Below the pieces are notes generated by a model. That model saw nothing but the letters and a program-made list of their open reading frames with translations. It was not told the DNA's origin and ran no database searches. A stretch of 11,423 nucleotides of DNA, from positions 1 through 11,423 of the forward strand of contig JAOUGG010000028.1 of NCBI GenBank assembly GCA_029857855.1. Direction: 5' to 3'. Positions 5,086 to 9,999 of the stretch are shown one piece after another. Position numbers and translations under genes: made by a program. This DNA comes from Acidimicrobiia bacterium (GTDB lineage: Bacteria > Actinomycetota > Acidimicrobiia > Acidimicrobiales > SZUA-35). Each line of letters starts with the position of its first letter. Position 1 is the first letter of the stretch.

Positions 5086-6225
5086 ATGAACGCTCGACGG
5101 GAACTGGCCGATCGAATGGCGGAGGCTGCCGTCGCCCTGCTCGACGGGCTCGATGCCACGCAGCGGACCGCGGCCACCTGGCCGTTCCCCGCCGCCGATG
5201 AGCGGGAGCGGTGGTTCTACACCCCGACGGACCATGGCGGGCTACCGCTGGCGGCCATGTCGTCGGCCCAGCATCGGCTCACCCACCGATTGCTGTCGAC
5301 CGGATTGTCGCCAGCGGGATATGTCACCGCGGCCACGATCATGGGCCTCGAGAACGTGCTCGACTTCACCGAGGGATGGAAGTCGTCCTTCGAGCGCGAA
5401 CGGGGCCGGGACCCGCTCCTGTACTGGATCGCGATCTTCGGTGAGCCGGGAGCCGACTCCTGGGGTTGGCGCCTCGGCGGGCACCACATCTCGATCAGCC
5501 ACACCATCGTCGGCGGCGAGGTGGTGGCGTCGACGCCGCTGTTCTTCGGCGCCGATCCGGCGTCGGCACCGCTGCTCGGTCCGCACCCGCTTCGTCCGCT
5601 GGCCGGGGTCGAGGATGTCGGCCGGGAACTCGTGCGATCCCTGCCCGCCGATCAACTGCCTGCGGCGCTGGTGTCGGCCGTCGCCCCGACCGACATCATC
5701 GGCGGCAACCGGTCCGTGCTGCGCGACGGCGATGAGATGCTCGGACTGCCCGACATCTGGCGAGGTCGATTCGAAGCCGAACTCGATCAGCGGATGCATG
5801 ACATGCAGCGAGCCGCCGAGGCCGGCCTCGGTCTGACCGCCGAGCATCTCGATGCGCTCCGCCTCACCACCCGGCCCAAGGGTCTGCCGGCTGCGGAGCT
5901 CTCGGCCGACAACCGGAGCACGCTGCGAGCACTCCTCGATCTGTACCTCGACCGTCTCCCCGACGATCTGGCCGACGACGAGAAGGCGAAGTTCGATGGC
6001 GCCGCCATCGAGTCGCTGTCGTTCCTGTGGGCCGGCTCGACCGAGCCCGGCGAACCGCACTACTACCGGATCCAGGGCGCCGACCTCCTGGTGGAGTACG
6101 ACAACACACAGCGAGGCGTCAACCACGTGCACGCGGTCTGGCGCGACCTGCGCCGAGACTTCGGCCGGGACGCCGTGCGTGATCCGCTCGCCGACCACTA
6201 CGCCACCGGCCACCACAGCTCGTAA
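5086..6225 (+). CDS. DUF3500 domain-containing protein
   Basis: The 379-residue protein matches my memory of DUF3500 along its length. Recognisable parts are the N-terminal helices R-E-L-A-D-R-M-A-E-A, the F-Y-T-P segment with H-G-G (residues 44-51), L-L-Y-W-I-A-I-F-G-E-P with W-G-W-R-L-G-G-H-H (105-130), and the C-terminal Y-Y-R-I-Q-G...Y-D-N-T-Q-R-G-V-N-H-V-H-A-V-W-R-D (near 325-355). The conserved His, Trp, Asp and Asn residues suggest an active site or metal site, but no biochemical function is known to me. There is no signal peptide or membrane segment. The ATG at 5086 has a good ribosome-binding site (GAAAGGA, 5074-5080). It lies 42 bases after the FAD monooxygenase and is probably last in that operon. 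Confidence 0.85.
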   Translation: MNARRELADRMAEAAVALLDGLDATQRTAATWPFPAADERERWFYTPTDHGGLPLAAMSSAQHRLTHRLLSTGLSPAGYVTAATIMGLENVLDFTEGWKSSFERERGRDPLLYWIAIFGEPGADSWGWRLGGHHISISHTIVGGEVVASTPLFFGADPASAPLLGPHPLRPLAGVEDVGRELVRSLPADQLPAALVSAVAPTDIIGGNRSVLRDGDEMLGLPDIWRGRFEAELDQRMHDMQRAAEAGLGLTAEHLDALRLTTRPKGLPAAELSADNRSTLRALLDLYLDRLPDDLADDEKAKFDGAAIESLSFLWAGSTEPGEPHYYRIQGADLLVEYDNTQRGVNHVHAVWRDLRRDFGRDAVRDPLADHYATGHHSS

Positions 6226-7075: not shown

Positions 7076-7995
7076 GACGCTCCTCCTTCCTTCTGACCGC
7101 CGCACTCGTCGTTGCCATCCTGGCTCCGCTGACGATGGCCTACCGGATCTCCGGCGCCGCCCACGCAACGGGTGGTGGCGGTCGAATCTTGGGATACGTC
7201 GGTGTCGCCGTGCTCCTCGTTGCACTGCTGGCAGCCACCGCTGTCGGTCTTCGCGACCTGTCTCGAAGCCTGGCCGGCGTGGACCCGGCGGCGTCGGCCA
7301 TCGCCGCCCGTCTCGGCGAGAAGCCGGAGCAGCAACTCCTCGTCGCCCGCTGGCTTGCTCGCAGCCGTTGGTACCGCAACGTCGGCGGCGTCGCCGGTGT
7401 GCTCGGTGGCCTGTTCGGCGGTTTTGGCGCCATGGTCCTCGTCGGACTGATCGGTCTGACGTTCGGCTCGCTGGCCGCGGAACTCCACCTGCTCCGCCCC
7501 GACCGGATCAGCGGTACCCGTCCGGCCGGTCCCCGGGTCGCCGGGCTGGAGCGGCGTTCCCTGCGCCGCTACTGGGATCCGGCTCGCCAGCTGGCTCTCG
7601 CCGCCGCCGGCGTGGTCGCCGTCTGGCTCCTGCTCGCCGACCGATTCGGACTCGTCGACGACCTCCGGGTTTCCTGGGTGGTCGGTGTTGTACTGATCGT
7701 CGCCAGCGCACTGTTTCTCCAGTGGCGGGTCGCCACCCGACCTCGGCCGGCGCTGCCCGGGGCCCTTCGATCAGCCGACGACCTCATCCGGTCGCTGGCC
7801 ATCACCCACGGCATCGCCAACCCGGCCATCACCCTGGCGCTCGCGTTCCTCGGTCAGGGCCTGTCCGACACCTCAGACGCTCTCTCGGTCATGGCGTGGC
7901 TGACCGCCCTGGCTCTGTACTGGCGGTTCCGTCGTCTCGGGCTCGACCATCTGCTCGATGAGCCGCCTCTCGCGGCCCGGATGGCTGCGGCGTGA
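7072..7995 (+). CDS. polytopic membrane protein of unknown function
   Basis: The 307-residue protein starts at the ATG overlapping the previous stop (ATGA). Hydrophobic stretches at about 5-23, 39-60, 104-136 (glycine-rich, long enough for one or two helices), 172-188, 202-217 and 271-285, with a weaker one at 250-264, predict six or seven membrane spans. Charged loops (61-102, 138-171, 220-245) separate them. There is no ABC, transporter or enzyme motif I can name. YtrA-type regulators commonly control ABC exporters, but this protein has no nucleotide-binding partner in the operon, so an export role would be speculation. Its stop overlaps the GntR start (GTGA). The frame is open further upstream, but that would overlap the previous gene completely out of phase. 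Confidence 0.75.
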   Translation: MRRSSFLLTAALVVAILAPLTMAYRISGAAHATGGGGRILGYVGVAVLLVALLAATAVGLRDLSRSLAGVDPAASAIAARLGEKPEQQLLVARWLARSRWYRNVGGVAGVLGGLFGGFGAMVLVGLIGLTFGSLAAELHLLRPDRISGTRPAGPRVAGLERRSLRRYWDPARQLALAAAGVVAVWLLLADRFGLVDDLRVSWVVGVVLIVASALFLQWRVATRPRPALPGALRSADDLIRSLAITHGIANPAITLALAFLGQGLSDTSDALSVMAWLTALALYWRFRRLGLDHLLDEPPLAARMAAA

Positions 7996-8369
7996 TCCTC
8001 AACGTCGACCCGTCCGCAGCGCTTCCGGTCTACGAGCAGATCCGACAGCAGATCACGCTGATGGCGGTGTCGGGTGTGATCGACCCGGGAACCCGGCTGC
8101 CGACCATCCGTCAGCTGGCCAACGACCTCGGCTTGGCCAAGGGCACCGTGGCGAAGGCCTACTCGCTCCTCGAGTCGGCCGCCGTGGTCGAGAGCCGGGG
8201 GCATCGGGGAACGTTCGTCAGGGAACTTGCCGCCGACGATGCCGTCGATGCCGACCTTCCGGCGCTGGCGGAGGCGGCCCAGGCCTACGCCGTCGTGGCC
8301 CATCAGCACGGTGTCGGCTGGGACGACGTTGTCGCCGAGCTGGAACAGCAATGGAAGCTACTGGGCTAG
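7992..8369 (+). CDS. GntR-family transcriptional regulator, YtrA-like
   Basis: The 125-residue protein has a GntR winged helix-turn-helix over residues 6-77: P-V-Y-E-Q-I-R-Q-Q-I, P-G-T-R-L-P-T-I-R-Q-L-A, L-A-K-G-T-V-A-K-A-Y and G-H-R-G-T-F-V. The remaining 48 residues form a short helical tail, too small for an effector domain of the FadR or HutC type, which matches the short YtrA subgroup. Such proteins bind as dimers and usually repress their own operon. The GTG start overlaps the membrane-protein stop (GTGA). Its probable target is the promoter at 6246-6275. A GntR gene third in its operon rather than first is less usual for this subgroup. Confidence 0.9.
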   Translation: MILNVDPSAALPVYEQIRQQITLMAVSGVIDPGTRLPTIRQLANDLGLAKGTVAKAYSLLESAAVVESRGHRGTFVRELAADDAVDADLPALAEAAQAYAVVAHQHGVGWDDVVAELEQQWKLLG

Positions 8370-8377
8370 CGTTAGGC

Positions 8378-9394
8378 ATGACTGACAACGAATCCGTCGA
8401 CGACCCGCCGGAACCGGACCCGACCGAGACGATCGAGGAGCTGCGCCGATCGTTCTGGTACGGGTCACGCTCGAACCTGAGTTTCAAGTTCCTGAAGGAT
8501 CTGCCGGACGCGGAGTTCGGCGACTTTCTCGATGAGCTGCTCACCGAGGTTGCGGCGACGATCGACTCCGGCGACCCGACCGGTGTGATCGACACCGCCT
8601 ACCGCTGGCAGATCCAGGGCTACACCGGTCATCTCGGCGATCCGAACGACTTCCCCCACCGCTTCGACGACGTGCCGATCAACCCGCTGCCCAAACCATT
8701 GTCGGAGTGCCGGGTCACCCTGTTGACGTCGAGCGGGCACTTCGTCGAGGGCGATGATCCGAAGCCGTTCGGGATCGAGTCGATGACGCAGGCCGAAGCC
8801 GAAGCCCGGATCGGCGACTTCCTGAAGGAGGCGCCGTCGCTGTCGTCGATCCCGGTCGATGTCGACCCGGCCCAGCTCCGGGTTCGCCACGGCGGCTACC
8901 CGACCGATGCCGTCCGGTCCGACCACCAGGTCGGCCTCCCGATCGGTCACCTGGCCGACCTGGCCGCCGACGGCGTGATCGGTGCGCTCAACCCGACGGC
9001 CTACTCGTTCGTCGGAGCGGCATCCCAGGTTCGACTCAAGCGCCAGGTGGCACCTGAGTGGGCCGATCGGCTCCGCAACGACGGTGAAACCGACGTCGTC
9101 CTGCTCGTACCGCTATGACCGGTCTGCCACGTGTCCGTGGGACACGTTCAGCGAGCCATCGAGGAGGCCGGCATTCCGACGGTCAGCGTCTACATCCGAT
9201 CCTTCGGCCACATCCCCGAGTTGATGGGGCTGTCAAGGAGCCTGATCACCCGTCATCCCATGGGCCGCCCGCTGGGCGCGCCGGGCGACGGCAAACGGCA
9301 GCGGTCGGTCGTCGAGGCTGCGCTCGCGCTGCTCGAATCCCCCACCCAAACCATCGTCGAGTTCGACGAGACCTACCGAATCGAGTCCGATTGA
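8378..9394 (+). CDS. selenoprotein, glycine/sarcosine/betaine/D-proline reductase component-B-like (in-frame TGA = Sec)
   Basis: Read through the TGA at 9116-9118, the frame gives 338 residues with selenocysteine at 247 in U-P-V-C-H (Sec247, Cys250). Sequence on both sides belongs to one family: before it G-Y-P-T-D-A-V-R-S-D-H-Q (173-184) and L-N-P-T-A-Y-S-F-V-G-A (204-214); after it V-G-H-V-Q-R-A-I-E-E-A-G-I-P-T-V and R-H-P-M-G-R-P-L-G-A-P-G-D. These match the GrdB/PrdB-type fold, whose redox Sec or Cys sits in exactly this place. Clostridial relatives reductively cleave glycine, betaine or proline with other subunits; none is seen here, so this protein may be a stand-alone reductase of another substrate. 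The ATG lies 8 bases after the GntR stop with a weak TTAGG site. Stopping at 9118 would leave 246 residues without an active site. A Cys-to-stop mutation or sequencing error is the alternative, disfavoured by the intact downstream frame and the hairpin after the TGA. Confidence 0.88.
9116..9118 (+). other. in-frame TGA read as selenocysteine
   Basis: The TGA lies in C-T-A TGA C-C-G context and is followed directly by codons for Pro-Val-Cys-His. It keeps frame with 91 further conserved codons up to a TGA at 9392-9394. Other genes here (for example those ending at 3797, 6225 and 9999) use TGA or TAG as ordinary stops, so a general code change is unlikely and local recoding fits better. Confidence 0.85.
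9124..9151 (+). promoter_or_regulatory. candidate bacterial SECIS hairpin
   Basis: ACGTGTCC (9129-9136) pairs perfectly with GGACACGT (9140-9147) around the 3-base loop GTG. Outside, CTG (9124-9126) pairs with CAG (9149-9151) across a small internal loop (CC opposite T). The loop starts 18 bases after the TGA and its first base is G. This agrees with the general bacterial SECIS description of a short apical loop with G in its first two positions, about 16-37 bases from the UGA. The hairpin lies inside coding sequence for H-V-S-V-G-H-V, as bacterial SECIS elements do. Confidence 0.78.
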
Positions 9395-9999
9395 AAACGA
9401 CCGCTGTTGTCGGCATTGCCCTCATCGCCTGCCTCTCCTCGTGCGGGGCCTTCCTCACCACCGGGGGGCAGTCCGAAGACCAGTGGGAGGAGATCTCCGA
9501 CTTCACCATGCAACCGGGCACGATGAACCCGGCCGAGGCCGAGCAGGCCCTGAACGACCAGGTGCCGTCCGACGGTCAGATTCTGCCTGGCTCGGTCACC
9601 CACCGCGGCTCGGTCACGACGCCCGGAGGTCAGGTCGACTTCTACTCGTATCGAGCGAACGATCCCGAGATCGGTACCCAGCCGGTGTTCTGCACCGCAA
9701 CCGTTGCCAACTCCTCGATGAGCGCAGGGTGCGGTGATCAGCCACCGGTCGAGCCGGCCGAACCGATCCAGGTCGCCGGCGAGAGCTGGGGTGGTCGCTG
9801 GCGGTCGGCCGACGTGGTCGTTCAGGAGGACGTCGCTCGGGTCGAGGCCACGGCCGTCGACGGCACCGTCTACACCATCACCCCGATCAACGGGTTCGGC
9901 TACATCGAGTGGCCCGACGAGCGGGGTTCGCTCGAACTTATCGCCTACGACGGCGAGGATTCCGAGCTCGGACGAGCGTTCGCCGGCCTCGACCGGTAG
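9391..9999 (+). CDS. lipoprotein of unknown function
   Basis: The 202-residue protein starts at a TTG that overlaps the selenoprotein stop (TTGA), so it is likely coupled to it. The N-terminus K-T-T-A-V-V-G-I-A-L-I-A-C followed by the lipobox L-S-S-C gives a lipid-anchored Cys18 after signal peptidase II cleavage. The mature part is acidic and mostly beta-like, with Cys101 and Cys114 placed to form a disulfide, and a Trp/Gly segment W-G-G-R-W at 133-137. I recognise no family. Upstream codons in this frame read through the selenoprotein's conserved C-terminus and are not coding here. If the selenoprotein were wrongly ended at 9118, this gene would appear to follow a false gap of about 270 bases. 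Confidence 0.8.
   Translation: MKTTAVVGIALIACLSSCGAFLTTGGQSEDQWEEISDFTMQPGTMNPAEAEQALNDQVPSDGQILPGSVTHRGSVTTPGGQVDFYSYRANDPEIGTQPVFCTATVANSSMSAGCGDQPPVEPAEPIQVAGESWGGRWRSADVVVQEDVARVEATAVDGTVYTITPINGFGYIEWPDERGSLELIAYDGEDSELGRAFAGLDR

Follow-up and report, generated by a model that had tools for sequence, protein, structure and literature searches.

Does the forward-strand reading frame that begins at position 8378 of the window (the whole analyzed stretch of 11,423 nucleotides, contig C326 of an Acidimicrobiia bacterium assembly that comprises 4.39 Mb in 978 contigs and is 81.36% complete) end at the TGA codon at positions 9116-9118, or is this codon read as selenocysteine and, if so, what kind of enzyme would be encoded? 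The original prediction held that the frame meets this TGA and that family-specific sequence goes on to position 9394, and the frame 8378-9394 indeed contains one in-frame TGA, at codon 247, ahead of its final stop, which is also a TGA (9392-9394). The read-through product is a 338-residue protein of the GrdB/PrdB superfamily (PF07355) with a predicted selenocysteine (Sec) at position 247. The sequence around the internal TGA reads LLVPL-U-PVCHVS, which places the codon directly 5' of Pro-Val-Cys-His at the redox position, as had been pointed out; the second residue of the resulting UxxC motif, Cys250, is encoded by the TGC at 9125-9127 and is retained by most homologues. The nearest named relatives come from an Acidimicrobiia bacterium (89% identity), an Acidimicrobiales bacterium (70%) and Ilumatobacter (70%).

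Upstream on the same strand lies a gene for a GntR-family regulator of 125 amino acids (7992-8369), which ends 8 nt before the selenoprotein start. The proposal that the gene belongs to an operon is less well supported: among the loci searched the pair is retained only in the closest relative (L091), and no neighbor is widely recurrent. Downstream, a possible lipoprotein-like gene, also on the forward strand (9391-9999), has no Pfam match, starts with a TTG that overlaps the selenoprotein stop, and shows 51.5% identity to its counterpart located 3' of the selenoprotein gene in L091; given the overlap of start and stop, its translation may be coupled to the read-through. Farther upstream in the window, positions 5086-6222 encode a DUF3500 protein (261.7 bits), adjoining genes for a PNPOx_N protein and an FAD-binding protein.

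The internal TGA is widely shared. A class-wide search detected matches at an E-value of 1e-10 or better in 86 of 296 genomes, with 115 match rows as tallied by hand, of which 113 span residue 247 and two do not; exactly one stop, always TGA, is found in 110 of the 113 spanning rows, and no stop in the remaining three (one Cys and two Ala at the aligned site). When the codon itself was read in a first set of fetched matches, all that span the site had TGA; in 21 named loci it was TGA in 20, the 21st falling short of the site. In a search of the phylum, 39 of 396 genomes matched, and all 30 returned loci (which include the window itself and three repeats of earlier loci, L122, L148 and L149) have TGA at the aligned position. 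At position 247, where Sec or Cys had been anticipated, the homologues have TGA, rarely replaced by Cys, Ala or Trp. Database annotation obscures this pattern: 118 of the 120 listed homologues (drawn from 831 found among 7998 scored) stop exactly before residue 247, which is the 246-residue product expected from standard gene calling, and the other two have Cys (P0108) or Trp (P0104) at this position.

Coding potential persists 3' of the TGA. Compared with six relatives, the window gene differs mainly at third codon positions on both sides of the TGA; for L091, the counts at codon positions 1, 2 and 3 are 20, 10 and 73 in the 235 codons 5' of the TGA and 10, 3 and 28 in the 91 codons 3' of it. 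The best NCBIfam profile, TIGR04483 (PrdB, 97.8 bits), covers residues 102-321 and hence spans the TGA, so the loss of homology that would have spoken against read-through is not seen. The Pfam GRDB match stops at residue 242, ahead of the TGA, and the 91-residue tail, searched alone, matched no Pfam family. That database gene calls terminate at the TGA and that metagenome assemblies contain errors might suggest that the codon is a true terminator, results from a sequencing error or marks a gene in decay. However, independent genomes from Actinomycetota, from Chloroflexota and from other groups share this TGA, and the third-position bias beyond it, together with the covarying hairpin described below, makes this explanation very improbable; error and decay in particular are very unlikely given the TGA shared by relatives and the bias.

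Directly 3' of the TGA, starting 10 nt after it, we predict a SECIS-type hairpin of the bacterial kind (9129-9147, + strand), with a stem of 7 bp (9129-9135 with 9141-9147) and a loop of 5 nt (9136-9140). In a gapless alignment of 54 columns from 63 TGA-bearing homologues, loop position T9138 is invariant and G9137 is at least 90% conserved, and pairing is intact in 95.2% of the 441 cells, compared to 18-45% when the partner is shifted by 1-3 columns. Against shuffled alignments, which ignore the relatedness of the sequences, double-change cells number 90, compared to a shuffled mean of 26.9 (sd 3.5), and covariation scores 0.607 as opposed to 0.144; a weaker separation is seen for two of the five measures, namely the number of pairs with a double change (5 vs 4.4, with 232 of 500 shuffles as high) and the number of further pair types (15 vs 11.1, with 3 of 500 as high). 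RNAalifold recovers six of the seven pairs unaided. The folding energy of the window hairpin taken alone is modest (z of -1.87, with 10 of 200 shuffles equally good), and in at least four homologues (L097, L078, L041 and L069) the 45 nt adopt a fold other than the expected hairpin at minimum energy.

The three middle pairs of the stem link codon 252 with codon 256, and standard pairs (G-U allowed) are present in all 63 rows, even as the encoded residues vary (Val/His in the window gene, Gln/Leu and Arg/Thr elsewhere). Judging from this alignment, the protein sequence at these two codons appears to follow the RNA constraint. The three class members that lack the TGA serve as natural controls: by hand tally of the aligned columns, the Cys form retains six of the seven pairs and has lost the loop U, and the two Ala forms retain three of seven, with loops that still read GT.

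Several variants of the active site were encountered in the course of these searches. The Ala forms, L157 and L158 (APMCSRT), in which Ala takes the place of Sec and the hairpin is degraded, are possibly non-redox descendants. L077 retains Sec, with Asp in place of the second motif Cys (UPLDH). Given the two homologues with Ala247 and this one with Asp, not every member of the wider family needs the UxxC motif. In the same phylum, the GRDB-like loci L135 (genome G400) and L140 (G370) contain two in-frame TGA codons within the motif (U-P-I-U-H, or UxxU), a possible double-selenocysteine active site.

The source genome encodes most of the machinery for selenocysteine decoding. A tRNA-Sec is located on contig C617 (67.3 bits against a gathering score of 47; ARAGORN assigns the anticodon TCA); the same Rfam family exceeds its cut-off in five of 14 control genomes. 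The selA gene, partial at a contig end (254.5 bits, cut-off 267.9), adjoins selB on contig C905. Thus, of the genes for which the original prediction had suggested a search, tRNA-Sec, selA and selB are present, but no selD was found in this 81%-complete assembly, where the weak 42-bit match sits in a run of genes that we take, from their sequences, to be HypF-HypD-HypE. In a comparison of 44 genomes, selB exceeds the cut-off in 23 of 24 chosen genomes that carry homologues of the window gene and in six of 20 listed non-carriers, and selD in 23 of 24 and seven of 20, respectively; the carrier without selB is G234 and the one without selD is the present incomplete assembly, all 23 other carriers being positive. 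The selD gene of many carrier relatives (L115-L120 and others) itself contains an in-frame TGA.

The Trp at position 247 of P0104, as read from the protein sequence, could hint that TGA is decoded in this lineage as another amino acid, such as Trp. We assign this possibility a negligible probability: the same gene also terminates with TGA, tRNA-Sec, selA, selB and the hairpin are all present, and a Cys homologue is nested within the same clade. Taken together, the conserved TGA, the covarying hairpin, the degraded non-TGA forms, the presence of tRNA-Sec, selA and selB, and the selD genes of the other carriers indicate that 8378-9394 is almost certainly a real selenoprotein gene, with Sec incorporation predicted from sequence. 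The original reading of the gene as a selenoprotein has therefore withstood most of the checks named for it, namely those of the machinery, the conservation of the TGA and the homology beyond it.

The protein belongs to the GRDB family (PF07355, 41.1 bits against a gathering cut-off of 22), but its match to PrdB (TIGR04483), at 97.8 bits, is far below the cut-off of 300, and those to the GrdB profiles are likewise too low (TIGR01917, 51.5 vs 602.2 bits; TIGR01918, 46.1 vs 65.45 bits); with both sets of cut-offs failed, we file it as neither a PrdB nor a GrdB enzyme. In a tree of 71 rows, the window gene falls in a clade of 39 with full support (100/100) that unites sequences of this class and of Chloroflexota with two others (L096 and L098); the Cys protein P0108 branches within it. 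Two other paralogues from the same genome, on contigs C231 (L067) and C368 (L068), are outside this clade; both have an in-frame TGA (UPVCHQS and UPVCHQT, respectively), and folding at minimum energy yields the expected hairpin in L068 and only part of it in L067. The predicted structure is confident (pLDDT 93.6, pTM 0.91) and combines helices within residues 19-83 with an alpha/beta PrdB-like domain (about 102-321), in which residue 247 follows a strand (240-244) and precedes a helix (248-263). No solved structure is clearly similar to this model. A 60-row alignment contains 25 invariant columns.

In D-proline and glycine reductases, the Sec-bearing PrdB or GrdB acts with a pyruvoyl-bearing partner, and the pyruvoyl subunit activates the amino group of the substrate. 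The original prediction noted that no partner reductase subunit is nearby, and this extends to the rest of the 81%-complete assembly, in which neither the pyruvoyl partner family (PF09338) nor GrdA (PF04723) has a match. Such an absence agrees with the failed PrdB and GrdB cut-offs, but for this genome alone it is weak evidence because of the incompleteness of the assembly. Both families are, however, absent from 20 of the 23 other carriers tested, most of which are at least 90% complete, and present together in the same three of the 24 carriers. These three (G241, G226 and G255) possess a separate GrdE-GrdB with the motif U-GTGTRCG, far from the window clade in the tree. On the same contigs of these genomes (L112-L114 and L153-L155), a GrdE-type gene, a GrdB with TGA and a GrdA with TGA are found, which look like glycine/betaine reductase clusters of the Sec type within this class. 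Three of the partnerless carriers are single-contig genomes (G002, G027 and G157), which hold subfamilies other than that of the window. Accordingly, it is improbable that the window protein is a true PrdB- or GrdB-type subunit that reduces D-proline, glycine, betaine or a similar amine together with a PrdA or GrdE partner encoded in the unassembled part of the genome: PrdB is the closest profile and the assembly is just 81% complete, but the score is far under the PrdB and GrdB cut-offs, most of the other carrier genomes tested lack the partner family, and those that have it possess their own GrdB.

The gene neighborhoods provide no pointer to the substrate, given that no neighbor recurs in more than four of 45 loci. 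Genes found directly upstream in individual loci encode a Redoxin (L105), a pyridine-nucleotide disulfide reductase (L095) and a methyltransferase (L058, with a relative upstream in L064), assigned by Pfam to Methyltransf_31 and presumably resembling ArsM. These neighbors, along with the UxxC motif, would fit a general Sec-dependent thiol-disulfide or peroxide reductase that functions in redox defense and is not specific for one substrate. We are inclined to doubt this explanation, considering that each such neighbor occurs in only one or a few loci and that the 25 invariant columns may point to a specific ligand. The assembly also encodes COX1, which makes aerobic respiration possible. Because the partner and GrdA are missing from 21 of the 24 carriers, no neighbor is widely conserved and COX1 is present, we favor a stand-alone enzyme: probably, the TGA is decoded as Sec via the hairpin and the 338-residue protein functions as a UxxC reductase of the GrdB/PrdB superfamily without additional subunits.

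For such a stand-alone reductase, we propose the following tentative scheme. The TGA at 9116-9118 would be read as selenocysteine through the hairpin immediately 3' of it; by analogy with related enzymes, Sec247 would attack a small substrate at an electrophilic atom, Cys250 would then resolve the intermediate to yield a selenenylsulfide, and a thioredoxin-type system would re-reduce the latter. With no pyruvoyl subunit to activate an amino group, the substrate would need prior activation, so it may be a small molecule that is already activated and requires no amine activation. As a more speculative extension, for which we would claim only limited confidence, the helical N-terminal part could replace the pyruvoyl subunit throughout the partnerless PrdB-type clade of Actinomycetota and Chloroflexota, whose members would use Sec to cleave an activated small molecule reductively. 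If this is true, the clade represents a class of selenoenzymes outside Stickland fermentation.

The locus thus offers a relative of the amino-acid reductases of fermenters that, as far as sequence can tell, likely acts without the usual partner subunit. The function of an abundant group becomes testable with the genome-resolved carriers in which no partner was detected and with the natural variants (Sec, Cys, Ala and UxxU), and the complementarity between codons 252 and 256 provides a simple marker for misannotated members, such as the great majority of the listed homologues that end before the active site.

Among characterized families, PrdB (TIGR04483) is the closest: the match covers nearly the whole model (positions 21-220 of 238) and the UxxC motif is common to both, but the window protein has about 100 extra N-terminal residues, scores 97.8 bits where the cut-off is 300 and comes from an (81%-complete) assembly without PF09338. 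With GrdB, GrdF and GrdH, it shares the PF07355 superfamily and Sec at the redox position, but the scores of 40-52 bits are under the cut-offs, and the motif UPVCHVS differs from the UGTGTRCG of GrdB in G241, G226 and G255. In a review table, GrdB (pfam07355) and PrdB (TIGR04483) are given as UxxC families (PMC9312934), and a 2026 review (PMC13188914) describes UxxCxxC in GrdB and notes that some bacteria have Sec in PrdB; the tally of one survey (PMC5029168) is 131 proline reductase selenoproteins from 110 organisms. In Cloacibacillus, a GrdB-like operon that serves fluoroacetate reduction (PMC10838667) likewise belongs to the superfamily and illustrates substrates beyond amino acids; as described there, it comprises two GrdB-related genes, an antiporter and a radical SAM protein, whereas the window has one GrdB-related gene and neither an antiporter nor a radical SAM neighbor among the ten frames scanned.

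Some homologues bear the NCBI name 'glycine/sarcosine/betaine reductase selenoprotein B family protein', and the kind is already known, since 'PrdB' selenoproteins with UxxC were described from the ocean in 2005 and again in 2008 (PMC1088965, PMC2398784). In the Sargasso Sea data, UxxC-type 'PrdB', with 42 sequences, ranked third in abundance among selenoprotein families (PMC1088965), and the GOS data contained 235 Sec and 110 Cys sequences, with PF07355 in the table (PMC2398784). D-proline fermentation, in our judgement, makes little sense in oxygenated water. By the definition in Table 2 of the GOS study (PF07355 plus UxxC; PMC2398784), the window gene is a further member of this known kind, having in common with it the UxxC motif, Sec via an in-frame TGA and PF07355, a comparison made at the level of the family. 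To a group known, in the sources cited, by family and motif, the analysis of the window adds the host lineage, the absence of the partner, the covariation of the hairpin and the subfamily structure.
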